From positions 1 to 32,171 of IMG/VR virus record IMGVR_UViG_3300009703_000066: 32,171 nucleotides of DNA; one strand, written 5' to 3'. This DNA comes from a virus. The notes under the pieces were generated by a model that had not been told where the DNA came from, did no database searches, and was given only the letters and a program-made list of their open reading frames with translations. The first letter of the stretch is position 1; the number at the start of each line of letters is the position of its first letter. This document shows positions 4,876 through 30,064 of this stretch, one piece after another. Position numbers and translations under genes: made by a program.

Positions 4876-7800
4876 ATGGTACAAGCTGGTTTTGAATCTA
4901 GAATAAAGATTCATCAAATTATTGAAAATCAACTACCAGGTTTTTTACTATCAGAAAGTAGTAATACCTCGGAATTTTTAAAGCAATATTATAAATCGCA
5001 AGAATATCAAGGCGGTCCAGTTGATATTGCAGAAAATTTAGATCAATATCTAAGGTTTGATAATCTTACTCCAGATGTAATTGTAAATTCTACTACTTTA
5101 ACTTCTGATATAACGAATACTCTTCCTACAAGTGATGCTGATGATGGAACAGTATATGTTGAGTCTACAAGAGGATTTCCAAGTCAATACGGACTTTTAA
5201 AAATTGTTAATAGTGATAATGAAGATGACTTTGAAATTGTTACTTATACTGGAGTAACCGCCAATAGCTTTACTGGATGTATAGGTGGATTTAGTGGAAT
5301 TACTAATTATCACAATCATATAGATCAAGAGAGTTTAATATTTTCTAGTTCAACCAGAAAAACTCATAAATCTGGTTCAAAAGTAGAAAATCTTAGTGCA
5401 TTATTTTTAAAGGAATTTTATAGAAATTTAAAAGCAACATTTGTACCAGAATTAGAAAATATTGATTTTAATGATCAAATAAATGCCGGAAATTTCATAA
5501 GGCATGCAAGATCATTTTACCAATCAAAAGGAACCAATGAGTCATTCAGGATTTTATTTAATGTTTTATATGGTGTAAATCCAAAAATTATAAATTTAGA
5601 AGAATTTTTAATAAAATCTTCAAGTGCAAGTTATATTAGAAGAGAAGTTGTAGTTATTGATATAATTTCTTCAGGAGATCCTAAAAATTTATTTGGACAA
5701 ACTATTGTAAAAACAAATGATTCATCTACATTTGCATCAGTATCTTCTGTAGAAACTTTTGAAAGAAATAGTAAATTATTCTATAAGTTAGAATTATTTG
5801 TTGGATATAATGACTCAAATGCTGTTTCTGGTAATTTTAAAATTACTCCTAGCACAAGAGTATTGGAGAATGTTTCTCAAGGTTCTAATGCAATATCTGT
5901 AGATTCAACAATAGGATTTCCCGAAAGTGGAACTATTTTTGTTGGGTCTGGAACAAGTATTACTTATACTGGTAAAAGTATAAATCAATTTTATGGTTGT
6001 GATACAAGTAATATTTCAAATATAAGTTCTACTGATGTAGTAAGATCCAATGATACTTACTATGGGTATGAAAATGGCGATTCTTCTAAGAAAATAGAAT
6101 TTATTATCTTGGGATCACTATCTAAATTTAATCAATTGGATAGTGATTTTGATGCTGATGAAAATGATAAAATTTATATTAGTAATTTAGGTAGGGTAAT
6201 TGAGAATAATAATGCAACATATGAAGAGGTTCTTGCAAATTCATGGATTTATAATGTTTGCCCTAGTTTTTTAATTGAATTTGGAACATCTGATAATGAA
6301 AATACTATATCATCAACAATATTATTTGATAAACCAATAAAAGATTATTTTAGAAAAGGTGACGTAGTAGAAATTCTTAATAGAGGAACTAATACTGTTG
6401 TTCATACAACTTACATATCAAGATCAATAGTAGATAAAAATTCCATTGTAATAGATATTGCCGAAGGTTATGATTATGGGCAAGGTCTTAGTGATGATGA
6501 TCTTTCTGGAATTGAATTAAAAAGAGTTAGTGGATTTGAGTTAAGGAGAAAGATAAGAAAATCTGGAAGAACATCTAGTGCTGTAGAATTTGAATTTGGT
6601 GATGATAGTATTATTTCAGATGTTCAAAATACTTATTTGGAACATGGTGATAGTCTATATGTAGCTTCAAATTCTTTACCATCCGGTAATAGAGAAGTAA
6701 TAGATGCTAATTTTCAATCATCATATGATATTCAAGAAAATATAAAGATATGTAATACTAGCAAATTAAAAAAGGTAGGAAGTAATTATTCAATTATTGA
6801 AGTATCTGATGCTGATGGTGTTCCATTTATTACTGGAGATAAGGTTTTTTATATTGCTGGAACTGAAAATCCCATCGCAGGATTGAGTGCCAGATCTTAT
6901 TATGTTGAGAAAATTTCTTCCAATGAATTAAAATTATATGGATCAGTTTCTTTTATTGGAACTGATAAAAATTTAACATTTGATCAAGATAGTAGTGTTG
7001 TAACCGGAAATAAATTAGTTCTTTATTCTCATAGGGATTTGGTCATTGGACCTCAAAAAATACTAAAGAAATTCCCTATCACACAAACAATAAAAAATAG
7101 TAGTACACCATTAACCCAACCAGGAACAGTTGGAATGATGGTTAATGGTGTTGAGATATCAAACTACAAATCTCATGAAAGTGTTTATTATGGACCATTG
7201 AGTAGATTTGATGTTTTAAGTGGTGGATCTGACTATGATGTAATTAATTTGCCTGGTATAGAATTATCTTCTAGTAATGGAACCACTGCATTAGTTCAAC
7301 CAGTAGTAAGTGGATCAGTTAAAGATGTATTTGTAGATCCTCAGGAATTTAATATTGATAAAATTGTTTCAGTCAATATTACTGGTGGTAATGGTCAAGG
7401 AGCAGTTATTGAGCCAATTTTAATCAAAAAACAAAGAGATATATTTTTTGATGGTAGAGAATCTGGTCGTGGAGGTGGTATAAGCACTTCTACCAATACT
7501 ATCGTCTTTTTAAAAGATCATAATTTGGTTGATGGTGATAAAATATCATATAATAATTCTGGAAATAGTTCTTTGGGTATAGGAACTACTTCACCAAGTG
7601 TAAATGGTACTACTTTCTTTATTGATGTAATTAATTCAAAAGCTATAAGATTGCATGATAATATATCAGACGCTCTTTCAGGAATTAATACCGTTGGATT
7701 AACCACAACTAATACATTTGGAATACATAAGTTTTTAACAACAGATCCAAATAACACTGTTTTGGATATTAAGGTTGTTAATGAAGGTAGTGGATATACA

Positions 7801-10800
7801 AATAGAAAATTAATTGTAAAATCATCAGGAATATCTACTGTTAGTGACACTATTACTTTTGAGAATCATAATTTTAAAGATGGAGATCTAATTGAATATT
7901 TGTATGAGAGTAGTATAGTATCTGGATTATCTACTAATAATCAATATTATGTTTTAAATATTGATTCCGATTCGTTCAGGTTGTGTGATGCTGGTATTGG
8001 AGGAACAATTACTTCAAATTATGAAAAACAGAAGTATGTTAATCTTACTTCATCTGGATCCGGGTATCAATATTTTAAATATCCGGATATTAGTGCATCA
8101 CTTTCGTATACTTCCATTACTTCAGATAATGTTACTGATGTTGTTAAATTAACACCTGTTGTACGTGGTAGTATTGTAGATGCCTACTTATATGAATCTG
8201 GAACTGGATATGGATCTACAATTCCAAATCATCAAAAAAATCCTTTAGTTTCTATAAAAAATGGTTCTAGTGCTAGGTTTAGACCTGTTATTGTAAACGG
8301 AACAATTCAAGATGTTTCTATTTTGTATGGTGGAAAGGATTACAATTCTTCTCCAGATTTAGAAGTTGTTGATCCAACTAATTTGGGTAATGGTGCAAGA
8401 TTAAGACCAGTTATAACTAATGGATCGATTACTGATGTTATAGTAGTTAATACTGGTATTGGATATTCTACAGCATCTAGTATTAAAGTAACATCGTCGG
8501 GGATAGGGGCATTATTTGATACTTCTGTAAGAGAGTTAACTATTAATAATAATAGAAAATATAAAAATTCTCTAGATGTTATTCATGAAACAGAATTATT
8601 GGTAGAATCTGAAAATAAAATTAAGTATACAGTCTCTGGATACTCTACTGCATTTTTAAATAATGGTGAAGGTATTGATAGTCATTCTCCTATAATTGGT
8701 TGGGCATATGATGGAAATCCAATATTTGGCCCATACGGATATTCCGATCCTAATGACATTGAATCGGATATTAAATTAATTGTTCCAGGATACACATTAA
8801 GTGAAACTAATATTATTGATAGACCGTCTGGATTTGATTATGGATTTTTTGTTGATGATTATGTTTATGATAATTCTGTAGGTGATTTAGATGAGCATAA
8901 TGGTAGATTTACTAAAGTTAGAGGTTTATTTGAAAATGGAGTGTATGGATATTTTGCAACTATTGAAGATTCTACTAAGAGTAACGTAGCAAAATACCCA
9001 TATTTTATTGGAAATAGATATAGATCAGATTTTATAAAAGAAAATAATTTATTGGATCAATCATTTGATTTTAATAATTCCAATTTAATTAGAAATACAT
9101 CAAAATATAATATAAAAGATAAAAATGTAGATTATGATTTTGTTTTTGAAAGTGCAAAATTATCAGATCAATTATTAACGGTAGAGTCTGTAACTTCAGG
9201 ATCTGTTGAAAATGTAGAGATTTTAAGTTCTGGTAGTAGATATAAAATTAATGATAATGTAAAATTTAAAAAGTCGGGTGGTGATCAAGGAGATGGATTA
9301 TCATTAAATGTTTCTGAATTAGAAGGAAAATCTGTTGTTGATGTAGAGTCTAATACATTGACATATGAAAATTCTATATTCGAATGGAATAATTCTAAAG
9401 AAGTTGAAGTTACTATTCAACCATCTCATATATTGTCAGATTCTGATAAAGTTACAATTTCTGGATTTTCTACAGAATCTGAGTTGAATGGTAATTTTGA
9501 AATAGGTGTAAAATCTAAGACGACAGTTTTACTTGAGAGTATTCCTTCAACAGCTTCTATTGGATCTACTGATATATTTGTTGAGAGTATTCCATCTACA
9601 CTTAATATAGGTAGTTTTATAAAAATAGGAACAGAGTCTTTAGAAATTTTTAATTTTAATAGAGAATCTAATTTTATTAGAGTTAATAGAGGTTCTACTG
9701 GTGTATCACACACAACAGGAACTGTAGTTGAATTTACTCCAGATTCCTTTACAATTGATGTAAATACTCCTCATTTCAATTCTAATGTCAATAATAAGGT
9801 ATATTTTAATCCAAATGAAGTCATAGGATTTGGAACAGTTGTTGGATTTAGTTCTTCAGTTACTGTAAGTTTTGGTGCGACAACAAAAGAAAGAGAAATT
9901 CTCACTCAATCAATTTTTATTGAAAATCATCCATTTACAGATAATCAAAAAATAACAATTAGTATACCTCATACTAATTCGGAAAGAATTTCAATATCCA
10001 CTTCACCGGCAGGTTCTACAACTGATTTACCATCAACTGCTGCAGGATTATCTACGAATGTATTTGTAAGTAATAAGGGTAGAGACATAATAGGAATAAA
10101 AACCACACTTAATTCTGATGAAGTATTCTTCATTGGTATTGGTGTGACAGATGGAAATGATTATAAGATAGAATCAAATTATACTCAAGTTCTTGGAAAA
10201 GTTGAGAGGGTATTAACTACTGTTTCTGTTTCAACTTCTCATGGAATGTTGAAGAATGATGTTATTTCTTTATCGCTTCAACCAAATCTTAATGTTGGTA
10301 TTGGAACTTCAACATCAGTTAAATTACGTAGATCTGATTATTTTGGTGTAGTTGCAAATAGAGAAACATTTGTTGCTGGTGGAATTTCTGTGGAAACTAA
10401 TTCCATAACTATTTCTTCTCATGGATTTAAGACAGGAGATAAAGTTGGATATTCTAAACAAACTTCATCTGAAGATTCACCTGGTGGATTAATTGAGTTT
10501 AATTCTTATTATATTTACAGAATAAATGATGATACTATAAAATTATGTGATACTTATATTGATTCTCAAAAAAATCCACCTACTGTAGTTGAAATATCTA
10601 GTGTTGGTGGATCAACTGACCATTATTTGGATCTTATAAATCCACAAATAGATATAGTAAGTGGAAATAATTTAGTATTTGATCTTTCAGATTCAACACT
10701 TAGTGGATACGAATTTAAAATATTTAATGATAATGAATTTAAAAATGAATTTGTATCTACAGGATCTACTAATAATTTTTCAATAATATCATCCCCAAAT

Positions 10801-13800
10801 GTAGGAAGTGCAGGGGCTGCATTAACTATAACTCATAGTGAAAATATACCAAATGTTCTTTTCTATAATTTAGAGAAATCTGGTTATATAAGCACTTCTG
10901 ATATAGATGTTAAAAATAATAATAAAATTTCATATATTAATAGTGTATATTCTAATGAATATACAGTTACTGGTACAGGAACAACTACTTTTGACATTGT
11001 ATTGAGAACCATTCCTGAAAGAAATTCTTATTTACAATCTGAATGTGATGTTCTAAAGTACACTACAACTTCAAAAACTGCAGAAGGAGCAATTGCAGGA
11101 TTAAAAATTATGTCCAAGGGTAGTGGATATAAAAAATTACCTGTTTTTGACGCTGTTACATCAACAAATGGAAAAGATGCTAACTTAATTGCAAAATCAA
11201 GTCTCATTGGAAATGTAAATCAAACTAGAATTGTTAATTCTGGATTTAATTATCCATCAGATAAAACATTAAGACCTTCTGCAAGCAGTACACAAGCATT
11301 ATCATTGATTAATGCTAATACTATTGGTATAGTTTCTGTTACAAATGGAGGATCTGATTATATTAATGAACCTTCATTGATTATTGTTGATTCTACTACC
11401 AATAAAAAAATAGATAGTGGGTTATTGAAGGCAAATTTACTCAATTCAACCATCCAAAATGTTGATATAGTATCCGAACCAACAGGACTTCCTGAAAAAA
11501 ATATAAATCTTTTTACAACAAATAATACTAATGGTGTTACTATAAGGGAAGTTCTTTCCAGTAATACTGGTATTTTTACTTGTGTTTTGACCACACCGGC
11601 TGAATTATTTGGTGCAGATCCATTTACTGCTGGAGATTTAGTTTTTATTGAAGGTATTCAAAAATATAGTTCCGGTGGTGATGGTTTTAATACAGAAGAC
11701 TTGCAATATCAATTCTTAAAAGTTCAAAGTTATGATGGTCCTCCATCAAATAATTCCGTAAATCCAGCAAAACTTACTATTGATGTAAATGAATTAACAT
11801 CTAATACGGGAATTGCAATTACTGATCAACAATCAAAACCAATTGTAATTAAAAAAACAGATTATCCATCATTTACTATTCAGACAGAATATAAATCATT
11901 CATTGTTGATGAGCAGTTAATTGTAAATGGAGTACTTAGAGATCTATTTTTAACTTCAGAAGTAGATAAAAATAAAATTAAAGTAGGTGGAACATATGAA
12001 GTATCGAAAGGTGATGTTTTAATTGGAAGTTCTTCTGGATCAAAGGCAACTGTGTTTTCCAGTAATAACAATTCTGGTGAATTTGAAGTTAATTACAATA
12101 GCCCCAAGAACATAGGATGGTCGGATGATACTGGAAAATTAAGTAATAATACACAATACTTACCTGATAATGATTATTATCAAAATTTATCGTATAGTGT
12201 TAAGAGTCCGATAGAATATCAAAAATCTGTAAGTGTTGTAAATGATTTGGTTCATACTATTGGGACAAAGAATTTTTCAGATACTGAGATTATTGGTGTT
12301 GCCAAAACAGTTGGAGTGTCAACTGATAGTGCAGTAGATTCTACAACAACATATGTTGATATAATTGACGATAGAAGAGTTGATACTTTAATGGATATTG
12401 GATTAGCAATAGATTCTAATATTTCAAATAATCAATCAAATTTTATAGAGTTTTCTAACCTTAGATTATCTCAATATACTGAGATTAGTGGTGATTTAGT
12501 TTTTACTATTGATAATATTAATAATCAATTCTCAAATTTAAAAGACAGGGAGAATTTAAAACAATATTTAGATTTATTTGCAGTAAGATCTTTAAATTAT
12601 TATAGTAATTTACTAATAAAAATAACTGATAATAATAATAATCAAGTTCAATTATCTGATTTAGTTCTTTTTAGTAATCAAAATGGAAATTATTTATTAG
12701 AAAGATCTGAATTATATAATAATTTTGAAAAACCTTATGGAAAATATTCTTTAGAATATTCTGACGTTGATAGCTCAAAAGTTTATTTTAGATTTACTCC
12801 AGATAATGAATATGCTTTTAATTATGACTATAATGTAGAAATTTTAGATCAATCTTTTATAGGAAATTCTGTCGGAGTTAATACTTATTCTATTGGAGAG
12901 TATATTGATTTAATTAGTTCAACTCAAAATATAGAAACAACAGAAACTAATATAGTTTCCTTGAATAAAAATTCTATAGAATCATTATATGCTGAAATTC
13001 AAATTACAGACTTAAGTACAGGAAAAATTAATTTCTCTGAAATATACTTAATTCATGATGGAACAAATACTTATATCTCAGAGACTAATACAGATTCTTC
13101 AAATATATTATTCAATTCCGATTCTATTGTATCTTTCGCATCAACTATATCATCAAATGATTTTATATTGAAGTGTTCTAATAATACTTCTAATAATGTT
13201 AAAGTAAAATCCAGAATTGTTGGATTTGGAGCAACAGATTCTAATAGTGGTACTGGATCTTATACTTTCCTTGCAACTAATCAACCAGAATCTTCTGCAA
13301 AAACTATTAAGTATCAAACAAATTATGTTAGTGGTACTGGAGATCAAACAATTTTAACTTTAGATTCTTCTGATTTTGCAGCATCTAAAATTATCGTTCA
13401 AGTATCCACAGGAACAGAAAAATCTTTACATCAATTATTATTGGTTCAAATTAATAATAATGCATATGTTCATCAGGATAAATTCAATTCTATAGATCAG
13501 AATGAGGAATATAGTTCTATTGGTGGAATAGGAACTTTTGGTACTGATTATAATTCATCTAATTATAGATTAAAATTCTATCCAGATTCTGATTTCTCTA
13601 GTGATACTATTGAAGTTACTTTATTGAGTCAAAATTTTTATAAGGATATAGATGTTAATATTCCAAACAATTTGGAATATGGAAATGTAACTGAGAAACT
13701 TTCCAGTAAAACTTATTATGGTATTAATAGTGATTCATTAAATAAAAATGATTTTGAGTTAACTACAGAATTTACACCAATTTTTGCAAAGAAATTTGAT

Positions 13801-16800
13801 CCATCGGATACAAATGTCGTATCCAATAGTGGAATATTTACAATAGAAAATCATTTCTTTAGGACTGGTGAGAAACTTCTTTATAGAGAAGGAACAACAT
13901 TTGGTGGATCTGCAACAAAAATGGAGTCTGCATCATCAACAGATTTTCCAGAAGAAGTTTTTGTTCATGTCTTGAACAAATCACAGTTTAAGTTAATGGC
14001 AACTAAAGCAAATGCTATTGCCGGAACTTCTGCGCTTACAGTTCATTCTCGTGGTACTGGTAATTCTCATGAACTTGAAATGGAATTGAAGAATGAAAAA
14101 ACTTTAATAACAGTAGATAATATTATACAATCTCCGATAGCATATTGTCCGATTTCTTATACTCTTTCAAATGGTATAAACAGTAATGATACTGTATTTG
14201 CATTATCTGGAATTACTTCAATAAGAGAAAATGATGTATTGAGATTGGATAATAAAGAATATGTTAAAGTTATTAATTCTGGATTAGGCACTTTATCTTC
14301 TGGTCCTATAACTGGAACTGGTACTAATAAATTGGTTCAAGTTGAAAGAGGATTCTTAGGAACTAATGCTGTTTCACATACATCATCTAAAGCAGCAGAT
14401 ATTTATAGAGGATCTTATAATATTGAAGGCAATAAAATATTCTTTACCGAACCACCTAGAGGTGAGGCAAATGTTGAGAGGAATGAAAGTAATTTAGAAG
14501 TACCAACATCAGATTTTGCTGGTAGAGTTTACTTTAAGAGTAATTATGATGATAGTAAAGTGTATGATGATATATCACATCAATTCACTGGAATAGGAAA
14601 AACATTTACTGTTACAGTTGGAGGAGCAAATACTTCTGGTATTGGTACTTTGGGTCGTAGTGGTTTATTATTCATAAATGGTTTTTTCCAAGCACCATCA
14701 ACTCCCAATAATACAAATAATAATTTTGATATATTAGAAACAGTAGCATCTGGAGGAGACCCTGGAATAACCACAGTTGTCTTTACTGGTATTAATGAAC
14801 CTATAAATGATGATATTAATGTAAATGAGGTACCAAGAGGAGGTATTGTAGTATCATATGGATTTACAGGTGGTCTTGGTTATGCACCTCTTGTAGGAGC
14901 ATCTGTAACTGCTATATTGGGTGCTGGTGGATCTATTACTTCATTTGGATATGAAGATTTAGGATCTGGATATTATGGTTCAGTTGGTGTTGCAGTAACA
15001 GATTTAATTTATGATCATAAATTTGTAAGTTGTGGTGTAAATTCAATTACTGATAATACTGGCAGTGAATATACTGCAACTGATGCAATTTATAATTCAT
15101 TAACAGGAGACTTAATATTAACAATTCCTAGACATGGATTGGATTTAAGTAATACTGTTGGTATTGATAATGGAGGAATTGTATTTACTTGCTCAAAGGA
15201 TGGACATGGAAGTGAACATGCTTATCCAAGAGCAATTTCTAAGACTCAATTGAGAAGAGGTAATAGTGGTGTTGGTGATCCAATATCCGGAATTTTAACT
15301 GCAATTACTGCAAAAACAAATAATACAATTACTATTAATGTTCATCCTGGGGGAGGGGCTGGTACTGGTGGTCAAGTGACGGCGGCAGTTGGAGCTGGAG
15401 GAACATTGACATTTAGTCTTGTTGGTCACGGGACAGATTATGTAAATCCGGAAATTTATGTGAATTCTCCATCGTATGCAAATCTTGGCATAAGTGGAAT
15501 TTCTAGATTAGATGGTTCTGCAGGTAGTGGACAAGGATTAAAAATATCTGTTGATGTTGGTTCAAGTTCAACAACTGGAATTGGATCCACATACTTTGAA
15601 GTAAAGGATATTAGTATTCATAATAATGGTTATGAATTTAGAAAAGGTGATAAAGTAAGTGTTACTGGATTAGTTACTGATCAAAGATTAGGAAGTCCTA
15701 TCGAACCTCTTGTTGTAGAAATATTAGAAACTTACACTGATTCATTCTCTATGTGGGAATTTGGTGATTTGGATTATGCAGATTCTATAGAACCTTTCCA
15801 AGATGGATTTAGAAAAAACTTTATTCTTAGATATGATAATGAGATAATTAGTTTTGAAGGTAGAAATAATGAAAGTATTAATTTTGAAAATTTATTATTG
15901 ATTTTTGTAAATGGAATTTTACAAACACCAGGAAAGGCATATACTTTTAATGGTGGAACATCATTTACTTTTGCAGATGCCCCTAAAATTGAAGATAAAG
16001 TCGATATTTATTTTTATAGAGGAATTACTTCAGAAGATAGTTCTGCAATAATTCCAATATATAAAACTATTGAGGAAGGGGATCAGATTCAAGGTATTGC
16101 AACTCATGATGATGAAAAAGATCAAAGTTTTAGAACAGTGTATGCTATTGAGTCTTCAGATACTTTGCAGACAAATTTATATTCTGGAGATGGTATATCA
16201 GAAAATGAAAAATCTATTAATCTAATCAAGCAAAAATCCGATTCAAAAATTGGTGGTCAGTTTAGATACAAAACTAGAGAATCATTGAAATCTTTGATTT
16301 ATCCTACTGCAAATATAATTAAAGATTTGAATACATCATCTACAACTTTGTATGTTGATAATTCTGAATTATTTAAAAACTATGTTTCTGCAGGAGAAGT
16401 TTATCAAATGCAGATAGTTTCTCAAGAACCAGTATCTTCTGCATGTACAATTACATCTTCTGTTGGTGCTGGTGGAACCGTTGTTTTATCCTTAGTTAGT
16501 GGTGGATCTGGATATAGTAGTGCTCCTACAATAAAAATTGCTGCTCCACCAATAATAGGTGTTGGTATAGGGACAACAGCACAAGCTACTTTGACTATAA
16601 ATTCAGGATCTGTAGACCAAATTCAAATTACTAATCCTGGATTTGGATATACTATTGCACCAAATATTATTGTTTCTGTTCCAAGTGCAATTAAAGAAAC
16701 TGTAACTGGAATTACTAGTACAAATACAAAAGGATTTACTGGTATTATTACGGGTATTGATACAAAGACTGATAGTGGTCAATTATACATTGAGTTTGAT

Positions 16801-17235: not shown

Positions 17236-17239
17236 TAGT

Positions 17240-17264: not shown

Positions 17265-18857
17265 ATGTCAGCGTTAGTTACTGATAATTTTAGAATACAG
17301 AATGCATCAAATTTTATAGATGCTGTATTGAATGGTACTGATAATTATTATGCTTTTCTGGGATTAGCAAACCCAAATACACCAGCATCTTCTTTTGGTA
17401 GAGATACTGATGTTAAGTGGAATAATATTACAACTACACCATCTCCTGTAGATAATTTAGCATACTTATCTCATTATAGAGATACTTCTTTATTTGGTAA
17501 AAAGATAACAGGTGATTCTATCAGAAGAGTTGTGAAAAAGCATCAATGGACTGCTAATACTCGTTATGATATGTATAGGCATGATTATAATATTGAAAGT
17601 AATAGATCTCCAGTTTCAAATAAAGGCAGATTGTATGATTCAAATTACTATGTTGTAAATAGTGATTTTAAAGTATACATTTGTCTTTATAATGGATCTT
17701 CAGGAGCACCTGGATCCGATTCTTCTAAAGGTGTTGAGTCTCAAGACGAACCAACATTTACCGATTTAGAACCATCTGCAGCTGGAACGAATGATAAGTA
17801 TATTTGGAAATATCTATTTACCATTGCCCCTAGTGATATTGTAAAATTTGATTCAACAGAGTATATAGTTTTACCTAATAATTGGGATACTTCTACCGAT
17901 TCTCAAATTCAAACCGTTAGGGAAGCAGGAGATTCTGTAGTCAATAAGAATCAGATTAAAAGAGTGTATATTGAAAGTGGTGGTTTAGGATATGAAAAGG
18001 GAACATATTCGGTAGATATCCTTGGTGATGGTACAGGTGCTAAGGTAACTGTTAGTGTTAATAGTTCTGGAACTATTGATGATGTTATAGTTACTTCTGG
18101 CGGATCTGGATATACATATGGAATTGTGGATTTGGGATCAGTACAAGCAGAAAATAGAGATAATAATAATAGAGCAAAATTAATTCCCATTATTCCACCA
18201 TCAAGGGGACATGGATTTAATATTTACAGTGAATTGGGTGGTGATAAAGTTTTAGTTTATAGTAGATTTGATAATTCTACGAAAGATTTTCCAACAGAAA
18301 CAAAATTTAGTCAAGTTGGAATATTAAAAAATCCAATGGTATCAGGATCTTATTCAATAAAATTTACTAATACTAGTTTTTCTTCACTTTATTCTATAAA
18401 GTTGACTTCTATTATTTCTGAAGATTCCATTACTGTAGGTGATATTATTACACAAACAAGATCTGATGGCGATGTTGCCAAGGGTTATGTTGCATCTTTT
18501 GATAAAACTACTAAAGTTTTGAAATATTTTATCGATAGAACATTATTTTTTGATTCTGCGAATAAGTATGATCAAACAGATTATACTAATGTAAGTACTG
18601 AATCAAAGCATGTTGCTTTTGATGGTAGTGCCAGTATTAGTATAGGCAGTGCTACTGCTTCAGTAGATACTAGTTTTGGAGCATCGGAACCAACTAATAC
18701 AGTTGATGGTATTAATCTTGGTGTTAGTTTCAATAGTGGACTTGCAAATCCTGAGATAAATAGAAAGACAGGTGATATTATATACATTAATAATAGACCA
18801 GTAGTTACAAGAGACTCTAGGCAAAAAGAAGACGTTAAAATTATTCTGGAATTCTAA
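17265..18857 (+). CDS. gp8: Baseplate wedge protein gp8, enlarged
   Basis: A 530-residue gp8-type wedge protein. The N-terminus has the cyanophage gp8 pattern: NFRIQNASNFIDAVLNG (about 8-24), NYYAFLG, then a WTANTRYDMYRHDYN stretch (near 102-116). A central YIWKYLFTIAPSD (near 184-196) and a C-terminal KTGDIIYINNRPVVTR also fit the family. T4 gp8 has 334 residues; here there is extra sequence, including a GSGY module pair at about 235-290 (SGGLGYEKG and TSGGSGYTYG around a DGTGAKVTV strand). gp8 forms a dimer that joins gp6, gp7 and gp10 in each wedge. It has its own late promoter. The next gene starts seven bases downstream. Confidence 0.9.
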   Translation: MSALVTDNFRIQNASNFIDAVLNGTDNYYAFLGLANPNTPASSFGRDTDVKWNNITTTPSPVDNLAYLSHYRDTSLFGKKITGDSIRRVVKKHQWTANTRYDMYRHDYNIESNRSPVSNKGRLYDSNYYVVNSDFKVYICLYNGSSGAPGSDSSKGVESQDEPTFTDLEPSAAGTNDKYIWKYLFTIAPSDIVKFDSTEYIVLPNNWDTSTDSQIQTVREAGDSVVNKNQIKRVYIESGGLGYEKGTYSVDILGDGTGAKVTVSVNSSGTIDDVIVTSGGSGYTYGIVDLGSVQAENRDNNNRAKLIPIIPPSRGHGFNIYSELGGDKVLVYSRFDNSTKDFPTETKFSQVGILKNPMVSGSYSIKFTNTSFSSLYSIKLTSIISEDSITVGDIITQTRSDGDVAKGYVASFDKTTKVLKYFIDRTLFFDSANKYDQTDYTNVSTESKHVAFDGSASISIGSATASVDTSFGASEPTNTVDGINLGVSFNSGLANPEINRKTGDIIYINNRPVVTRDSRQKEDVKIILEF

Positions 18858-18863
18858 AAGACA

Positions 18864-21800
18864 ATGCCACAAAAAAGAAATTTAAATATAAATCCATATT
18901 ATGATGATTTTGATAAATCTAATAATTTTTATAAGGTTTTATTCAAACCAGGATTTCCCGTACAGACTAGAGAATTAAATACTTTACAATCTATATTACA
19001 AAACCAAATTGAAGATTTTGGCAGTCATATTTTTCAAGAAGGAACAGTTGTAATACCAGGTAATATTACGTATGACGACAAGTATTATGCAATAAAATTA
19101 AACGATACTAATTTTGGTACAGATATTTCATTATATCTTAATCAATATCTTGGCAAAACAATTACGGGTCGTAATTCGGCAATTTCTGCTACCATAGATT
19201 TTGTTGCTTTACCTACAGAATATGATGTAGATAGTCCAGTAATATATGTAAAATATATAAATTCTGATAAGAATTTCCAATTTAAACAATTTGAAGATGG
19301 TGAAGAACTAGTTTCAAATGTTTCTATAACATATGGAAATACAATTATTCAGGCAGAAACTCCTTTTGCCTCAACCATATCGGGAAATGCATCTTATATT
19401 GGTTCTTCAGCATCAATAGCAAATGGTGTTTATTTTGTTAGGGGTTATTTTGTAAATGTTGATGCTCAAACTATATTACTAGATGAGTATTCAAATACTC
19501 CGTCATATAGAGTAGGTCTAAGAGTAGATGAAACTATCATTACTGCTAAGGATGATGATTCATTATATGATAATGCAAAGGGATTTTCAAATTATGCATC
19601 TCCTGGAGCAGATAGATTAAAGATAAATTTAGTTTTAACTAAAAAACTTATTAGTGATATTGATGATACTAATTTTATTGAACTATTGAGGGTTCAAGAT
19701 GGTATTATAAGAAAGTTAGAGACACAAACTCAATATAGTATAATTCGTGATTATTTGGCAAAAAGAACTTATGATGAGTCTGGTAGTTATTCCGTTGAAC
19801 CATTTGATTTATCGGTACATAATTCATTAAATGATAGGATAGGATCTAAAGGTCTATTTTTTGAGGGATCTGTTACAGATGATAATAATCAACCATCTGA
19901 TGATTTGATGTGTATCAAAGTGTCTCCTGGTAAAGCTTATGTAAAAGGGTATGATGCTGAAACAACAGGAACATCTACTCTTGATGTGGAAAAACCAAGA
20001 GAAACTAGACGGTTAGAGAATAGAAATGTCCCATTTGTAATGGGAAATCTTTTAAGAGTTAATAACGTAGAAGGAACTCCAGAAATTTCAGATACTATAA
20101 CGTTACATAGTCGACATGATGGAAGTGGTGTTGAAATTGGTAAAGCAAGAGTATATACTTTTAATTTAACAGACTCTGCTTATGAATCTGTTAGTACAAA
20201 ATGGGATTTGTACTTATATGATATTCAAACATATACAATATTAACAATAGATAAGGCATTAACATCGGCAGAACAAAAAGTATCATTCTATATTGAAGGT
20301 AAAACTAGTGGAGCGAGTGGTTACGTTGTTACTGCAGGGGATGGGACAAATGATGAAGTAACTCTTAGGAATACTACAGGTCAATTTGTTAAAGGTGAGC
20401 AATTAATTATTAATGGTGTAGATAAAGTAAAAAGAAGCATAAAGACGATAAATTCATATGAAATTGAAGATATAAAATCAGTTTCCAATGGTAAAACTAA
20501 TGGAAATGATTTTAGTGCAGATGCATTTTTAGATAGTCTTCCCATTCCAAATGGAATTGATTCGGGTACTATTACTGGTACTAATTTATTAACAAGTTCT
20601 GGAAATGTATTTTCTGGAATAAAAACTGATACTGTTATTAGATATCAACATACAACTGGAGATGAAAAATTTGCAAGAGTAACAGGTGTTAGTGGATCTA
20701 CTTTAGATTTAGCTGATATAGGACAAAATGTTACTGGTGTTTATAATGGAACAGTAACTAATGGGACGTATAGTAATATAAGAATAGCAGCACCTATTCT
20801 TAGAAATATCGAGGATGGATATCTCTATACAGAATTACCTCATGAAAATATTGAATCTATAGATACAAATGATTCTCAAGTTTCAATTAGATTACAGTCA
20901 ACTCCTACGGCATCGCACGGTTCTAATAACACAGTAACTTTTAATATTGAGAATTTTACATTACCTACAGGAATTTCAACTGTATTATTTTCATCCTTTG
21001 ATGCTGATAATTACTCTTTACATGCGAATACTGGTAATACTGCACCAACATCAGTAACTGCAGATACATTTACTTTAAATACTACTAATAATTCTGTAAC
21101 TATAACTGGAGTTGCTAATGGTACTGATTATATTCTCAATGCTACATTTGCAAAACCAGGACTAACTAGTAAGAAGAAAATTTATAATCGTAGCAAAAAA
21201 ATAACAGTTACTGGAGGAATATCTGCAGTATCTACTTCAATTAGTGGGTTAACACCAAATGATTATTATGGAATGAGAGTTCAAGATAAAGAAATTTCTT
21301 TGAATTATCCTGATGTTGCAAATATTTTAGCAGTTTACGAATCACTTAATAGTAGTTCTCCAACTCTAGATCAGTTTACATTTGAATCTACGGCAAATGT
21401 TCATACTGAGACAATTATAGGTGAAAACATTTACAGCACTAATAGTAAAGCTGTAGCAAGAGTTGTTTCTAGTCCAAGTAATCATACTTTGGAAATTGTT
21501 TACTTAAATTCTGATAGATTTACAATAGGTGAAAAAGTTACTTTTAAAGAGTCTAATATAGAAAGTAAACTTGTTTCTATTAATACTGCTGCAGGAACAG
21601 GAAAATATAAAGATATTACCGATTCATTTATTTTGGATAAGGGTCAAAGAGAACAATATTATGATTATTCTAGATTGGTAAGAATTGCCGGATCAGCAGT
21701 TCCATCTAAAAAAATATTAGTGGTTTTTGATTATTATAGTGTTAGTGCTGATGACCAAGGAGATGTATTTAGTGTTTCTAGTTATGGTAAGGAAAGATAT

Positions 21801-24800
21801 AATAAAGATATTCCACTACTAAATGGTAGTATTAGATCTACAGATGTATTAGACTTTAGACCAGTAGTAACGACTCCTTTCGTATCAACGACATTATCTC
21901 CATTTGATTTTGGCGCAAGATCATTTGCTCTTAACAGAGTCATTACACCTAATGAAAACTGTTTACTTGATTATTCATATTATCTTGGAAGAATTGATAA
22001 GATTTATATTGATAAGAGATCTAAATTATTTGTGAGAAAAGGGACTTCTACTGAAACTCCTATAGAGGCATCAGAAAATGATGATGTAATGGAAATAGGA
22101 ACCATTACTTTGCCACCATATCTTTATGATCCATCAGACGCTCAAGTCACTATGGTGGATAATAAAAGATATACCATGAAAGATATTGGATCTATTGAAG
22201 ATAGAGTAGAAAATCTGGAAGAAGTTACAACTTTATCATTATTAGAAGTAAATGCACAATCTATACAAATAAGAGATTCTAATAATAATGATAGATTTAA
22301 GAGTGGTTTCTTTGTAGATGACTTTAAAAATAGAAATTATATTAATTTAAATGTTTCATCCATTGAAGTGGATAGGGAAAATTCTGAATTAATACCTATT
22401 ATTTCTTCAGATACTCTATCATTACAACCTGCACCAGCAGATAATATTGCAGAAAGTTCTTTAGATTTATCTACAAATTATAATTTACTTGATAGTAATG
22501 TACAAAAAACTGGAGAAACAATTACATTAAAATATGATTCTGTTGAATGGATACAACAACCTCTTGCTAGTAGGGTAGAGAATGTTAATCCATTCCATGT
22601 AGTTGAGTATTATGGTACTATAAAGTTAGAACCAGAACGTGATACATGGGTAAGAACTATTAGATTAGGATCCCAGCAAGTTAATAATTTCTCAAGTGTA
22701 GTTAGAGGAAGGGGAGGATTTATTAGATTTGGTGGGGTAACTCAATCCGTTAGAACACAAGATGTGGTGGTTTCTTCTGGTAGTGATCAATTTATGAGGT
22801 CTAGGAATATACAGTTCTCTGTTAAGAACAATAAACCTCTTACAGAGTATTTTCATTTCTTAGATGGAATTGGAACTTTAGATGTTGTTCCAAAACTGTT
22901 GGAAATTTCTCCGGATAATACATTATCAAATTATGGATCTTCAGGAACATTTACTATTGGAGAAGATGTTGTAGGAACATTTGATGGTGAAGAAAGAATT
23001 AGATTTAGAGTCGCTCAATCTAATCATAAATATGGTGCATATAATGATCCAGATAAAACTTTTAACATCAATCCATATGTAAGTAGTGATAATCTTGAAT
23101 CTGCATATAGTCAGGCATCAAAAGTACTTAATGTAGATACTTCTTCCTTACATGTGCAGGTAAGAGGTGCATATTTTGGATATGTTAAGATGGGAATGAA
23201 ATTGGTTGGACAAACTAGTGGTGCGATTGCATATGTTAAGGATGTTAGATTAGTTTCTGATAATTACGGAGATCTGATAGGAACAGTCTTTATAAGAGAT
23301 CCTTATCATAATAATAGTATTATTGCGAGAGATAATATTGTTAAGGTAGAAACTGGAACAAAAACTTTTAGAATAACAAGTAGTGCTACCAATACAACTC
23401 CATTAAAAGGAAGTAAATTAATTTCATTTGCAGAAACTAAATATCAATCTAGAGGAATATGGCAGCAAAGAAGATTTGTTACTACTGTAAATAGAACTAA
23501 TAATTGGTGGAGATATAGTGATCCTTTAGCACAATCATTTACGGTTGGTGGAAGTGTTCAGGTTCCTGGTGGATTTAGTTCGGGAGATGAGGATGATGAT
23601 GGAGCATTTGTAACAGCGATTGATTTATTCTTCGCACATAAGTCTTCCGGAAATGATCAACTTATCGTAGAGATAAGAGACATGGAGTTGGGAACACCCG
23701 TTCTTCAAAGAAAGGGAGAGCCTGCTGTTCTAGATCCTAGTGATATTAATATTTCTACTACTGGTGAAACTGCTACTCACGTAGTATTCCCAGAACCAAT
23801 TTATCTTGAAGGTGGTAGGGAATATGCTGTTGTATTACTTTCACCAACTACTGATCAATATGAGGCTTGGATTGCAAGAATGGGAGAAAAGACTGTAAAT
23901 ACTCAGTCGCTTCCAGATGCAGAAGCGGTCAGATATACAAAGCAATTTGCAATTGGTAGTCTTTTTAAGTCTCAAAATGGATCTATTTGGACATCAAGTC
24001 AGTATGAAGACTTGAAGTTTAAATTATATAAGGCTAAGTTTACATCAAGTGCAGGAACTGCATTCTTCTATAATCCAACTCTCGATAAAGGTAATGGATA
24101 TAAACCATTACTTCCTAATAATTCAATTAGAACTTTACCAAAAACTTTAAAGTTGGATCTTGATCCTGAAGTTAGTAATGGCACTGATAAATCAACTCTT
24201 GAGACAATAGGAACAAAAATTCTTGGTGCTTCAGTTGGGGTTGGAACTTCTGGTTATGGGTTTATTGCTGGAGTTGGTGGAACAGTAATCACTTCAGAAG
24301 TAGTTCTTGGTGGAGAAAATTATCATGCATCAAATCCAGGAGTTAATGTTGATACCTTTGCAATTACTGGACAAGGAAGTGGATTAACTCTTGATTTAAC
24401 TTCTACTTCAAATGTAATCACTGGATCTACAGTTGTTAGTGGTGGAAGTGGATATAAAGTTGGAGATATTGTTGGAATTGTTACTTCAGATACTGAAGGA
24501 GATAGAGGAACAGGCGCTCGTATCACTATCACATCTCTTGGTAATTATGATACACTTTATCTTGATAATGTTCAAGGTACTATAGGTGCAAATAGTGCGT
24601 TTCCAGATAATCAGGCATTGAAACATGGAGACTCAGGCACAGCTTTTAATTCTACTGTTACTGTAAATCTTGCCGGAAGTTCTGAGGGATCTGGATTAGA
24701 ATCTGGAACCATGCTTGAAATTAATCAGTTCAATCATGGAATGTATAGTAATACCAATAAAGTAGTACTGTCGGATGTTCAATCAAGTTATAATCCAACT

Positions 24801-26048
24801 AAATTAGATGCTCCATTGACATCCACCGGATCTTCCATTACTGTTGCCGACACATCAGATTTTGCTAGATTTGAAGGTGAACTTGTAAGTTCTAATAATC
24901 CAGGACTTATAAAAATTGGAAGTGAAGTAATAAAATATATTGAAGCTACTGGAACAATAATTACATTTGCTGGTAGTGGTAGAGCGATTGAAGGAGTGGC
25001 ACAACCACATGATACTGGAGATTTGGTTTATAAGTATGAATTAAATGGAGTTTCATTGAAGAGAATTAACGCCGAACATACAGTTAGTGATTTAGGTCTT
25101 ACTCAAGATCGTTATCATATATCAATTAATAGAGCATCCGGAACAGATATTACAAACAGAAGTGATGATAATCAAACAATAGCACCACAAGTATCATTTA
25201 TTGATGATTCTTATGGTGGTGGATCTGAGGCAAGAGCATCACAAAATATTATTTTTGGTGAAGTTATTCCTAGATTTGAAGTTTTTGCTCCAAGTGGAGA
25301 CACTGTTGCATCATCTTCTATAAGAAGTGTTACTGCAACAAGTATTAGTGGATCTGAAGCATCCTTTAATGATGTTGGTTATGAATCAGTCGAATTAAAT
25401 ATTCCAAATAAATTAACTACTCCTAGAATAGTATGTTCGGAAGTTAATGAAAATGAATATCTAACTAACCTTCCAAGAAATAAATCATTTACTGCAGGAG
25501 TATCTTTAAAAACTGAAAATACAAATCTTTCACCAATTATTTACTTAGATAGATCTGTAGTCGAATTTAGATCTGCAAGGATTGATAATCCAATTTCAAA
25601 TTATTCTGATAATAATCAAATTAGATCCAATGATAATGATCCCCATTCCGCAATTTATGTTTCTAATAGTGTTAATTTAAAAAATCCTGCAACTTCATTA
25701 AAGGTATTATTAAGTGCTTATAGGCATGAATCTGCCGACTTTAGAGTTCTTTATCAATTAATAAGATCGGGATCTAGTGAGATTAATCAAACATTTAATT
25801 TATTCCCTGGATATGATAATTTAGAATTTGCAGATCAAGCAGGATTCTTAGTCAGAGATGAGTCAAAAAATTCGGGATTACCTGATAGATTTGTAAGATC
25901 TAGTTTAGAAAATGAATATTTGGAATATGAATTTAGTGCTGATGTTAATGAAGAATTTATTGGATTCGCTATTAAAATTGTTATGAATTCTAAAAATCAA
26001 GCAGAATATCCAAGAATTAAAGATCTTAGAGCTATAGCAGTAAGATGA
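18864..26048 (+). CDS. Giant virion protein with DUF4815-type N-terminus (gp9/gp10 region)
   Basis: A 2394-residue structural protein. The N-terminus (NINPYYDDFDKSNNFYKVLF, then PGFPVQTRELNTLQSILQNQ) matches my memory of the DUF4815 family found in T4-like cyanophages. A short coiled coil (GSIEDRVENLEEVTTLSLLE, near 1110) is followed by a region around 1550-1690 with DPLAQSFTVGG and a GGREYAVVLLSPTTD strand. TSGA modules (near 485 and 1450), a GSGY module (near 1859) and a 'RAIEGVAQPHDTGD' module (near 2040) are shared with the neighbouring virion proteins. Position between gp8 and the neck genes suggests a role like gp9 or gp10, connecting fibres to the wedge; that is inference. The gene overlaps the following small gene by four bases (ATGA). 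Confidence 0.85.
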   Translation: MPQKRNLNINPYYDDFDKSNNFYKVLFKPGFPVQTRELNTLQSILQNQIEDFGSHIFQEGTVVIPGNITYDDKYYAIKLNDTNFGTDISLYLNQYLGKTITGRNSAISATIDFVALPTEYDVDSPVIYVKYINSDKNFQFKQFEDGEELVSNVSITYGNTIIQAETPFASTISGNASYIGSSASIANGVYFVRGYFVNVDAQTILLDEYSNTPSYRVGLRVDETIITAKDDDSLYDNAKGFSNYASPGADRLKINLVLTKKLISDIDDTNFIELLRVQDGIIRKLETQTQYSIIRDYLAKRTYDESGSYSVEPFDLSVHNSLNDRIGSKGLFFEGSVTDDNNQPSDDLMCIKVSPGKAYVKGYDAETTGTSTLDVEKPRETRRLENRNVPFVMGNLLRVNNVEGTPEISDTITLHSRHDGSGVEIGKARVYTFNLTDSAYESVSTKWDLYLYDIQTYTILTIDKALTSAEQKVSFYIEGKTSGASGYVVTAGDGTNDEVTLRNTTGQFVKGEQLIINGVDKVKRSIKTINSYEIEDIKSVSNGKTNGNDFSADAFLDSLPIPNGIDSGTITGTNLLTSSGNVFSGIKTDTVIRYQHTTGDEKFARVTGVSGSTLDLADIGQNVTGVYNGTVTNGTYSNIRIAAPILRNIEDGYLYTELPHENIESIDTNDSQVSIRLQSTPTASHGSNNTVTFNIENFTLPTGISTVLFSSFDADNYSLHANTGNTAPTSVTADTFTLNTTNNSVTITGVANGTDYILNATFAKPGLTSKKKIYNRSKKITVTGGISAVSTSISGLTPNDYYGMRVQDKEISLNYPDVANILAVYESLNSSSPTLDQFTFESTANVHTETIIGENIYSTNSKAVARVVSSPSNHTLEIVYLNSDRFTIGEKVTFKESNIESKLVSINTAAGTGKYKDITDSFILDKGQREQYYDYSRLVRIAGSAVPSKKILVVFDYYSVSADDQGDVFSVSSYGKERYNKDIPLLNGSIRSTDVLDFRPVVTTPFVSTTLSPFDFGARSFALNRVITPNENCLLDYSYYLGRIDKIYIDKRSKLFVRKGTSTETPIEASENDDVMEIGTITLPPYLYDPSDAQVTMVDNKRYTMKDIGSIEDRVENLEEVTTLSLLEVNAQSIQIRDSNNNDRFKSGFFVDDFKNRNYINLNVSSIEVDRENSELIPIISSDTLSLQPAPADNIAESSLDLSTNYNLLDSNVQKTGETITLKYDSVEWIQQPLASRVENVNPFHVVEYYGTIKLEPERDTWVRTIRLGSQQVNNFSSVVRGRGGFIRFGGVTQSVRTQDVVVSSGSDQFMRSRNIQFSVKNNKPLTEYFHFLDGIGTLDVVPKLLEISPDNTLSNYGSSGTFTIGEDVVGTFDGEERIRFRVAQSNHKYGAYNDPDKTFNINPYVSSDNLESAYSQASKVLNVDTSSLHVQVRGAYFGYVKMGMKLVGQTSGAIAYVKDVRLVSDNYGDLIGTVFIRDPYHNNSIIARDNIVKVETGTKTFRITSSATNTTPLKGSKLISFAETKYQSRGIWQQRRFVTTVNRTNNWWRYSDPLAQSFTVGGSVQVPGGFSSGDEDDDGAFVTAIDLFFAHKSSGNDQLIVEIRDMELGTPVLQRKGEPAVLDPSDINISTTGETATHVVFPEPIYLEGGREYAVVLLSPTTDQYEAWIARMGEKTVNTQSLPDAEAVRYTKQFAIGSLFKSQNGSIWTSSQYEDLKFKLYKAKFTSSAGTAFFYNPTLDKGNGYKPLLPNNSIRTLPKTLKLDLDPEVSNGTDKSTLETIGTKILGASVGVGTSGYGFIAGVGGTVITSEVVLGGENYHASNPGVNVDTFAITGQGSGLTLDLTSTSNVITGSTVVSGGSGYKVGDIVGIVTSDTEGDRGTGARITITSLGNYDTLYLDNVQGTIGANSAFPDNQALKHGDSGTAFNSTVTVNLAGSSEGSGLESGTMLEINQFNHGMYSNTNKVVLSDVQSSYNPTKLDAPLTSTGSSITVADTSDFARFEGELVSSNNPGLIKIGSEVIKYIEATGTIITFAGSGRAIEGVAQPHDTGDLVYKYELNGVSLKRINAEHTVSDLGLTQDRYHISINRASGTDITNRSDDNQTIAPQVSFIDDSYGGGSEARASQNIIFGEVIPRFEVFAPSGDTVASSSIRSVTATSISGSEASFNDVGYESVELNIPNKLTTPRIVCSEVNENEYLTNLPRNKSFTAGVSLKTENTNLSPIIYLDRSVVEFRSARIDNPISNYSDNNQIRSNDNDPHSAIYVSNSVNLKNPATSLKVLLSAYRHESADFRVLYQLIRSGSSEINQTFNLFPGYDNLEFADQAGFLVRDESKNSGLPDRFVRSSLENEYLEYEFSADVNEEFIGFAIKIVMNSKNQAEYPRIKDLRAIAVR

Positions 26049-26405: not shown

Positions 26406-26407
26406 AA

Positions 26408-26415: not shown

Positions 26416-26439
26416 CCTAAAGATATATTTTATTAAATA

Positions 26440-27780: not shown

Positions 27781-27782
27781 AA

Positions 27783-28622
27783 ATGGCAAAAGCAAATACA
27801 AGGCAAGGACTTGTTGATTATTGTTTAAGACAGTTAGGTGCTCCTGTATTAGAGATTAATGTTGCTGATGATCAAATAGATGATTTAGTTGATGATGCAC
27901 TTCAATACTTCCATGAAAGGCACTTTGATGGTGTTGAAAGGATGTACTTGAAATATCAAATAACTCAAGATGATATTGATAGAGGAAAAGGTCCTGGGGC
28001 AACAGGAGTAACTGGTATAAGCACAACAACTGTAAGTCATAGTGTTGGTGTAACAACTCAATTTTCCTATGAGGAAAATAATAATTATATTCAGGTACCA
28101 GATTCTGTAGTTGGTATAGAAAAAATATTTAAGTTTGATACTAGCTCAATTTCAGGCGGAATGTTTAGTATTAAATATCAATTAATGTTGAATGATATTT
28201 ATTTTTTTAATTCTGTTGAGTTACTTCAATATTCTATGGTTAAAACGTATCTTGAAGATATTGATCATTTATTAACACCTGATAGGCAAATTAGATTTAA
28301 TAAAAGACAAAATAGATTGTATTTAGATATTGATTGGGAGGCACAAACAGCAGGAGAATATATTATTTTAGAGTGTTATAGAATTTTAGATCCCGATACT
28401 TTTACAAGTGTATATAATGATAGTTTTTTGAAGAAGTATTTAACTTCATTGATAAAGAGACAATGGGGTCAAAATCTATTAAAGTTCCAAGGAGTTAAAC
28501 TTCCTGGCGGAATTGAATTAAATGGTAGGCAGTTATATGAAGACGGTAATAGAGAACTTGGGGAAATAATACAAAAGATGTCTATGGAATATGAATTACC
28601 TCCTCTTGATCTTATTGGATAA
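27783..28622 (+). CDS. gp13: Neck protein gp13
   Basis: A 279-residue neck protein (T4 gp13 has 309). The N-terminus TRQGLVDYCLRQLGAPVLEI (about 6-25) followed by DDQIDDLVDDALQYFHERHF is the hallmark of the family. The C-terminal half has LKKYLTSLIKRQWGQNLLKF, then GGIELNGRQLYEDG, and ends YELPPLDLIG. gp13 joins gp14 in the ring that closes the filled head and receives the tail. Residues about 62-88 form a Thr/Gly/Ser-rich loop. gp14 follows two bases after the stop, matching the expected stoichiometric pair. Confidence 0.95.
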   Translation: MAKANTRQGLVDYCLRQLGAPVLEINVADDQIDDLVDDALQYFHERHFDGVERMYLKYQITQDDIDRGKGPGATGVTGISTTTVSHSVGVTTQFSYEENNNYIQVPDSVVGIEKIFKFDTSSISGGMFSIKYQLMLNDIYFFNSVELLQYSMVKTYLEDIDHLLTPDRQIRFNKRQNRLYLDIDWEAQTAGEYIILECYRILDPDTFTSVYNDSFLKKYLTSLIKRQWGQNLLKFQGVKLPGGIELNGRQLYEDGNRELGEIIQKMSMEYELPPLDLIG

Positions 28623-28624
28623 TC

Positions 28625-30064
28625 ATGGCACTAAATCCCTTTTTTCTTCAAGGATCTTCTAATGAACAATTTCTTGTTCAAGATTTAATAAATGAGCAGT
28701 TGAAAATATATGGTATAGAAATTTATTATCTACCAAGAAAAATATTTCAAACTGATGATATTATTAAAGAAGTGCAATCTTCAAAATTTGATGATTCTTT
28801 TCTAATAGAAGCATATCTCAATAACTATGAGGGATATTCTCCAAGTAGCGATATAATGACGAAATTTGGGTTACAATTGAAAAATGAAGTTAGTTTAACA
28901 ATATCCAGAGAAAGATTTGAAGAATTTATTACTCCATTTATGGAGGCAATTTCAACAGGACTTAGAGATAATATTCAAACAGATTTTACTTTTCAGGATT
29001 TAGTCAGTAGACCAAGAGAAGGAGATTTAATATATTTCCCATTAGGAGAAAGATTATTTGAAATTAAAAGAGTAGAGTTTGAAAAACCATTTTATCAGTT
29101 AGGAAAAAATTACATTTACGAATTGAGTTGTGAACTCTATGAATATGAAAATGAACTTGTTGAGACTTCAATTGAAGAAGTTGATAATACTGTAGAGGAT
29201 GAAGGATATAATACTGCAATAACTCTTGTTGGTAATGTTGTAGAAGCATCTGCTATTGCAAGAGTTGGATCTGCCGGAATGGTTGGACAAATAATCCTCA
29301 ATAATGATGGATCTGGATATACATCGGCACCAACAGTTACAATATCGAATCCTTCTGGAGTTGGTGGAAAAGTAGCAACTGCGGTTGCTATTACCACAAG
29401 TATTTTAAATGTTACTTCTATTGATACAATAAGAATAATTAATCCAGGATCTGGATATGATTTAAATAATCCTCCAACAATTACAATAAGTGGTGGTGGT
29501 GGAGTAGGAGCAGCTGCAACTGCTGTTATCGTTGATCATGGTATTGAAGAGATTGAATTTTCCCAGAATGGTGGAGGTTATTTTGGAGATACATCTGTAA
29601 TTATTTCAGGTCCAGGATCTGGAACGACTGCAGTTGTAAGTCCGGTTATTTCTAGTGGAGTCATACAATCTGTTCAATTTATTAATGCTGGTGCCGGATA
29701 TACTGGTATCGGTACTACAACGGTATCAATTACAGGAATATCTTCGGTTGGAGTTGGCACATTTGTTTATAATGAAATAATTACTGGTGAGAGTAGTGGA
29801 GTTACTGCAAGGGTTAAGGATTATAGGAAGGGTGTCTCTACAGTACCCAATGTTCCTGCAGAGACTATTCTAAAAGTAGCACTAAATACTGGTAAATTTG
29901 CTAGTGGTGAAGTTATAGTTGGTTCAAGTTCATCTGCTAGATACTATGTCAAATCTCATAATTTAGAGAGTTATGATAATGAGTTTGATTCTAATGAAGA
30001 TATAGAATTAGAAGCAGATTTAATATTAGATTTTACAGAGTCTAATCCATTTGGAGATTACTAA
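28625..30064 (+). CDS. gp14: Neck protein gp14 with a large internal GSGY-module insertion
   Basis: A 479-residue protein; T4 gp14 has 256. The N-terminal 200 residues (NPFFLQGSSNEQFLVQDLIN, then IYYLPRK and EKPFYQLGKNYIYELSCELY) and the C-terminal 33 (SYDNEFDSNEDIELEADLI, then FTESNPFGDY) look like ordinary cyanophage gp14. Between them, from about residue 203 to 446, lies a beta-module block. It has GSGYTSAPTVTIS, a second GSGYDLNNPPTITIS, GAGYTGIGTTTVSI and two TSGA-like units (ITGESSGVTARV and IVGSSSSARYYV). Removing the block leaves about 235 residues, near the T4 size, so it reads as an insertion into a loop. The neck role is with gp13 at the head-tail joint. It overlaps gp15 by one base. 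Confidence 0.9.
   Translation: MALNPFFLQGSSNEQFLVQDLINEQLKIYGIEIYYLPRKIFQTDDIIKEVQSSKFDDSFLIEAYLNNYEGYSPSSDIMTKFGLQLKNEVSLTISRERFEEFITPFMEAISTGLRDNIQTDFTFQDLVSRPREGDLIYFPLGERLFEIKRVEFEKPFYQLGKNYIYELSCELYEYENELVETSIEEVDNTVEDEGYNTAITLVGNVVEASAIARVGSAGMVGQIILNNDGSGYTSAPTVTISNPSGVGGKVATAVAITTSILNVTSIDTIRIINPGSGYDLNNPPTITISGGGGVGAAATAVIVDHGIEEIEFSQNGGGYFGDTSVIISGPGSGTTAVVSPVISSGVIQSVQFINAGAGYTGIGTTTVSITGISSVGVGTFVYNEIITGESSGVTARVKDYRKGVSTVPNVPAETILKVALNTGKFASGEVIVGSSSSARYYVKSHNLESYDNEFDSNEDIELEADLILDFTESNPFGDY

Follow-up and report, generated by a model that had tools for sequence, protein, structure and literature searches.

The DNA analysed here, called the window, is the whole 32,171-base stretch of a virus record and covers the late region of a marine phage related to T4. 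Its genes occur in the order gp25, gp6, a giant protein at the gp7 position, gp8, a DUF4815/VrlC protein, small genes, gp13, gp14, gp15 and gp16. An identical gene order, including gp25-gp6-gp7-gp8, is found in Prochlorococcus phage P-SSM2 (family Kyanoviridae). Two of the proteins considered below, gp14 (PF11649) and gp8 (PF09215), are T4-like both by family profile and by structure match: T4 gp14 was the sole clear match in the Foldseek pdb list for the gp14 model, and the gp8 model aligned with T4 gp8 (1n7z) with a Z of 11.8 over 247 residues. The first-pass annotation of this DNA had described a recurring beta module in four virion proteins located at both the baseplate and the neck, and the families of the host proteins bear out these locations. 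Coordinates of the four genes and of the units within them are given in Table 1. Two other features of the giant protein were seen. One is a YHYH domain (PF14240, E 2.4e-24) at window positions 8632-8970, directly after the block of four units. The other is a separate short direct repeat at window positions 9533-9611, with two copies 48 bases apart that are 77% identical; it is unrelated to the GSGY units.

Table 1. Unit-bearing genes of the window and the predicted units within them (window coordinates; unit numbers are residues of the respective protein)
Feature	Coordinates	Strand	Basis
Giant protein, gp7 position	4876..17235	+	4119 aa; about twelve units; ORF; phrog_2885 baseplate wedge subunit, E 0; gene order of P-SSM2
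gp7 unit 778-814 and probable degenerate partner near 831	7198..7455	+	Unit HMM; partner by eye
gp7 units 1055 (weak), 1100, 1144 and 1185, probably two pairs	8038..8553	+	Unit HMM; pairing partly by eye
gp7 units 2073 and 2150, each with degenerate partner (2114, 2193)	11092..11550	+	Unit HMM; partners by eye
gp7 C-terminal pair 3869, 3913	16480..16737	+	gp14-only HMM, iE 1.0e-5 and 8.8e-6; phrog_460, 3e-12 at 3850-3946
gp8 baseplate wedge protein	17265..18857	+	530 aa; PF09215, 3.1e-10
gp8 pair, residues 231-313, extra to T4 gp8	17955..18203	+	HMM; pLDDT 84-91 over most, 68 near residue 300
DUF4815/VrlC-type virion protein	18864..26048	+	2394 aa; PF16075, 4.6e-61
DUF4815 pair: weak unit 1808 and GSGYKVGD-type unit 1852	24285..24539	+	HMM; the weakest carrier
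gp14 neck (head closure) protein	28625..30064	+	479 aa; PF11649, 3.5e-29; PDB T4 gp14, 3.5e-24
gp14 units 1 and 2 (residues 220-304)	29282..29536	+	HMM; pLDDT 83-93 nearly throughout
gp14 units 3 and 4 (residues 307-388)	29543..29788	+	HMM; pLDDT 61-92

The unit is about 40 residues long and has three strands, with a GSGY core followed by PxVxI and GxGAxA strands. It is present in the gp7-position protein, gp8, the DUF4815 protein, where it is weakest, and gp14. The motif G falls at residues 1109, 1153, 3877 and 3922 of the giant protein, 240 and 280 of gp8, 1861 of the DUF4815 protein, and 229, 275, 316 and 356 of gp14; the units named at first pass lie within one or two residues of the positions then given. 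The motif as originally worded was too strict; in the 14 proteins of the window there are just two exact matches to G-[SG]-GY-x3-P-x-[IV]-x-[IV] (giant protein 3877 and gp14 229), and the remaining units fit a looser profile. Additional units were located in the giant protein at 778, 1055, 2073 and 2150, and the units were found to occur mostly in twos. Among the units of the giant protein, those of the C-terminal pair are nearest to the gp14 units. A second motif (F-x-x-GE ... SGA), sought by pattern as a repeat, occurred once in the window, in gp14.

An iterated unit HMM was run on the ORF products of the fetched loci and of the window, after identical ORFs had been merged to reduce the count from 2165 to 1991. 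At iE<1e-3, 558 units were identified in 231 of these 1991 distinct proteins, and neither shuffled nor reversed copies of the same proteins yielded a single unit. Thus the profile search of window and other phages that had been suggested at first pass recovers units beyond chance. Carriers were 82 of 92 gp14 proteins, 67 of 93 gp7 proteins (the windows masked when this role was assigned were chosen by hand), 67 of 93 gp8 proteins, 9 of 135 DUF4815-type proteins and 6 others. With this model no units were found in the gp13, gp15, gp16, gp6 or gp25 proteins of the fetched loci and the window. The copy in the DUF4815 protein of the window is weak; a model seeded with giant-protein units found this protein only at a whole-protein E of 0.008, and the converged unit model missed the copy at 1e-3. 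We accepted it because related DUF4815 proteins have recognisable units at approximately the equivalent place, and it is probably homologous to the units of gp7, gp8 and gp14.

Searches of Pfam, NCBIfam and PDB sequences placed the unit in no known family, and no Pfam family, whether Ig-like, Calx-beta or other, passes its curated cut-off over the units. When T4 gp6-gp12, gp14, gp15 and gp18 were scanned with six unit models, the best iE was 0.15; therefore these models recognise no unit in T4 gp7, gp8 or gp14. No paper describing the repeat was found in the literature searched, which took in few subscription journals.

The number of units in a run is usually even. In gp8, 83 of 85 runs consist of two units; even runs make up 80 of 85 in gp14 (73 with four units) and 89 of 110 in bacteria (68 with two; see below). 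The gp7 runs do not follow this rule (189 of one, 65 of two and 42 of three), perhaps owing to degenerate partners, which were read by eye. AF2 models of gp14 (pLDDT mostly 80-93 in the units) and gp8 (mostly 84-91) predict three strands per unit and therefore six per pair. Helices of four or more residues are absent from the models of gp14 219-388 and gp8 231-313. The alignments used for folding held 48 of 81 gp14 proteins and 36 of 81 gp8 proteins, drawn in each case from 80 loci and the window; the N-terminal domain of gp14 was badly modelled (pLDDT 26-46, pTM 0.43). From these models, two consecutive units would make up one six-stranded barrel-like domain, which forms part of the explanation that we favour. 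In the gp14 model, residues ~194-215 and 390-450 (window 29207-29278 and 29789-29974) jointly align to barrels of the EF-Tu/aIF2-gamma type with Z ~5-6, and the four units appear to be inserted between the two halves of this EF-Tu/aIF2-gamma-like barrel region.

The unit is also found outside the phage late region. When contigs of bacteria and archaea were searched with a degenerate DNA pattern for GxGYTxAPTVT, at least 118 stretches matched. Among the matches listed, the HMM called units in 79 of 80 loci; of the 82 ORFs with units, 74 had at least two, spaced mostly 36-41 residues apart. Because the loci were picked by the motif, the weight falls on the tandem neighbours. Four bacterial carriers were scanned for other domains, of which one has fn3 and another has dockerin and GH64. 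Pair profiles (at most 120 pairs each, with at most 40 proteins per null family) were compared by hhalign, and the bacterial profile matched gp14 at a probability of 99.7%, gp7 at 98.9% and gp8 at 97.7%. Some cyanophage tail fibres bear units as well (ACG-2014j). A Foldseek search of viral models returned 56 matches at E up to 0.001, spread over many phage structural proteins. Since bacteria bear the unit, an origin in this late region is not required.

Structural comparison of the predicted pairs pointed to the T4 tail sheath. The top VIA-align row for gp14 units 1 and 2 (221-304) was T4 gp18 99-188 (77-78 residues, 3.1 A), and the sole row confined to the gp8 pair (232-312) was T4 gp18 domain I (74 residues, 2.9 A); both have a Z of 6.1, a value below the 8 advised for the tool and in a range where unrelated folds score too. 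Ig-like families were absent from the VIA-align rows for the units, an absence that excludes nothing. In all three proteins the motif G is 8 residues past the start of the aligned range (gp14 229, gp8 240, gp18 107). In 53 distinct rows of T4-type sheaths, I103, G107, Y110 and D114 are 100% conserved; sheath rows having at least 60 gaps were left out. Sequence searches gave lower signals. Unit HMMs run on 152 sheath proteins together with those of T4 and S-SM2 gave a best iE of 0.0024. The hhalign comparison of sheath and pair profiles reached just 0.7-6.9%, with 0-2 of 51 null windows scoring as high. The reciprocal sheath HMM had a top match at iE 0.019 against a best reversed match of 1.1, and 1 of 51 null windows did as well, counting only matches in role-labelled proteins. 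This null window, from the DUF4815 family, matched the gp8 units in what looked like a chance flank match. In a separate observation, phrog_26741 was matched both by residues 100-146 of T4 sheath gp18 (L296:517-2496; E 5.9e-4) and by the giant protein at the gp7 position.

Taken together, the sheath results are suggestive, and we lean slightly toward the view that the pair barrel and T4 gp18 domain I are domains of one kind. The units are termed related to domain I rather than members of it because the alpha helix of the T4 domain is absent from them. Several of the results would also fit units that are an independent family, acquired from (or lent to) bacterial extracellular proteins, with the resemblance to sheath domain I being that of a common barrel arrangement. 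Thus bacterial and gp14 pairs agree at 99.7%, two of the four scanned bacterial carriers have fn3, dockerin or GH64, and the sheath sequence tests are weak. However, the gp14 and gp8 models both point to this one sheath domain, in each case with the motif aligned in register, and the G and Y are invariant in the 53 distinct sheath rows. We therefore consider an independent family unlikely, though worth bearing in mind.

The claim that the units constitute one family rather than four separate inventions is supported by the pair profiles of the phage proteins, for which hhalign gave 98.9% between gp14 and gp7, 97.8% between gp7 and gp8, and 95.3% between gp14 and gp8, over 56-79 columns. Models built while leaving proteins out found one another's units to differing extents. 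The gp7-only model found units in 82 of 92 gp14, 13 of 93 gp8 and 8 of 135 DUF4815 proteins; the gp14-only model in 45 of 93 gp7 proteins and just 1 of 93 gp8; and a bacterial-only model in 82 of 92 gp14, 52 of 93 gp7 and 21 of 93 gp8. No matches to these models were found in reversed controls. The first-pass annotation had stated that its proposal would be refuted if the units grouped strictly by protein and aligned only at low-complexity glycines. On the second point, the alignments of the pair profiles extend far past the glycines, but cross-protein matches of single units nearly vanish once the G..Y core is masked: matches of the gp14 model to gp7 fall from 45 of 93 to 0 of 93, and those of the gp7 model to gp14 from 82 of 92 to 2 of 92. 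Once the core was masked, a bacterial-unit model still found 73 of 92 gp14 proteins. We take the gp7, gp8 and gp14 units as homologous on the strength of these profile comparisons, with more signal in pairs than in single units. Convergence, in which glycine-turn motifs would have arisen separately in beta-rich proteins, would account for the effect of masking on single units and for the poor resolution of the unit tree (see below), but it is improbable in view of the high pair-profile scores among phage and bacterial units (95.3-99.7%), the persistence of bacterial-model matches after masking, and the empty reversed controls.

The first-pass annotation had further proposed that the units are a mobile, interchangeable block spread by recombination inside the late region; with the sampling used here, this part of the proposal is not supported. 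Among units with a G..Y/F-like core, the nearest neighbour in another contig belongs to the same protein for 664 of 684 (shuffled labels gave a mean of 246 and a maximum of 297). By role, this is true of 316 of 316 gp14 units, 92 of 92 gp8 units, 242 of 246 gp7 units, 14 of 17 DUF4815 units and 0 of 13 units from unassigned proteins. For only 3 of 669 units does a second unit on the same contig lie closer. The test was repeated on 12 named phages and the window because the full set is rich in close relatives; here 76 of 100 nearest neighbours are from the same protein, compared to a shuffled mean of 33 and maximum of 51. In the 74 proteins with exactly four called units, out of 92 with the gp14 role, the order of the gp14 units is kept in every case (74/74). 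A tree of the same 100 units, in which recent exchange should have shown as grouping across proteins, is poorly resolved, with 7 starred of 97 inner branches; its labels cluster by protein (25 changes versus 45.9 when shuffled), whereas clustering by phage is not seen (77 changes). The carrier genes share no long DNA repeats; the longest family of between-gene repeats is 42 nt at 67-71%. We rejected recent exchange between genes on the basis of these nearest-neighbour, order, tree and DNA-repeat tests. A block that is still mobile and interchangeable would suit the occurrence of one family in four neighbouring late genes and the varying unit number among phages (called gp14 units range from 2 in S-RIM2 to 7 in S-CAM9), but in light of the same four tests it is very improbable.

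The nearest neighbours, the fixed order in gp14 and the absence of long DNA repeats indicate that the copies are old and fixed. As part of the favoured explanation, spread between the proteins would predate the divergence of the sampled Kyanoviridae or have come from outside the late region; ancient exchange between the proteins is possible.

Although no Pfam family represents the repeat, it is present in most of the sampled gp14, gp7 and gp8 proteins and in many bacterial proteins. One practical consequence is that profiles containing it label proteins at baseplate positions as head closure proteins. The phrog_460 profile (head closure Hc2) contains gp14 units and, through them, matches the giant protein (3e-12) and gp8 (2.9e-5). 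Unlike the unit, phrog_460 is a whole-protein family, and for this reason its name misleads when a protein matches through the repeat alone. In Pelagibacter phage HTVC008M, I899_gp055 (L177:33435-36485) lies between gp6 and gp8, which is the gp7 position, and carries the annotation 'head closure Hc2'. Its matches include baseplate wedge families as well as phrog_3465 and phrog_460, which both bear the Hc2 name; the annotation is probably a naming error that stems from the shared repeat. The same phage has genes annotated curli CsgF, CsgG and CsgB at L177:7562-9557. Beyond the first-pass annotation, the analysis adds that units pair, that bacteria have relatives of them, that the barrel may be identical with the T4 sheath knob, and that sharing of the repeat leads to wrong protein names. 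If the sheath-knob assignment is true, a solved structure exists for the domain and much of the sequence of the giant cyanophage baseplate proteins can be interpreted.

The explanation that we prefer, with somewhat better than even confidence, is that of a homologous repeat family whose paired units form a six-stranded barrel that is plugged into virion proteins, is fixed in each protein and may serve as a surface spacer or decoration. By this account the barrel would be inserted several times in gp7, once in gp8, once in the DUF4815 protein and twice in gp14; alignments show the units of gp8 and gp14 to be extra to the T4 protein. The barrels would presumably lie in surface loops and face outward. 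Their putative role would be that of an outward spacer or decoration, perhaps through weak host-surface contact or through packing on neighbouring subunits, and no catalytic role is envisaged. The gp14 units occupy the region corresponding to the C-terminal region of T4 gp14 (178-256), which one account describes as disordered in the isolated neck and in contact with gp15 in the virion (PMC12270204). A broader reading, to which we give an even chance, is that contractile-tailed phages use the paired-unit barrel generally as a plug-in surface module. It would then form the outer knob on the T4 sheath; in Kyanoviridae it would decorate the baseplate (gp7, gp8, DUF4815) and the neck (gp14) as well as some tail fibres, and bacterial extracellular proteins would carry the repeat too.

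These predicted domains can be compared with three known kinds. Ig-like and other small beta domains are described as additions to the sheath and other tail proteins and are thought to help adhesion or stability (PMC9230969). The barrels resemble these in being small beta domains added to phage proteins, but they have no Ig-like Pfam match and are built from a paired 40-residue repeat. The bacterial GSGY repeats have the same unit, the same tandem spacing and even runs, but they occur in long multidomain proteins that are not virion components and for which no Pfam family was found. The third kind is T4 gp18 domain I (residues 98-188; PDB 3FO8, 3FOA), described as a six-stranded barrel with a helix, inserted into domain II and situated in the protease-resistant, solution-exposed part of the protein (PMC3004832). 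The gp14 and gp8 pairs share with it the predicted six strands and the G..Y at the same offset, and it is their best structural match, at a Z that unrelated folds also reach. However, domain I carries an alpha helix that the units do not have, its second half is degenerate, its sequence match to the units by hhalign is not significant, and it is located on the sheath, whereas the units are on the neck or the baseplate.
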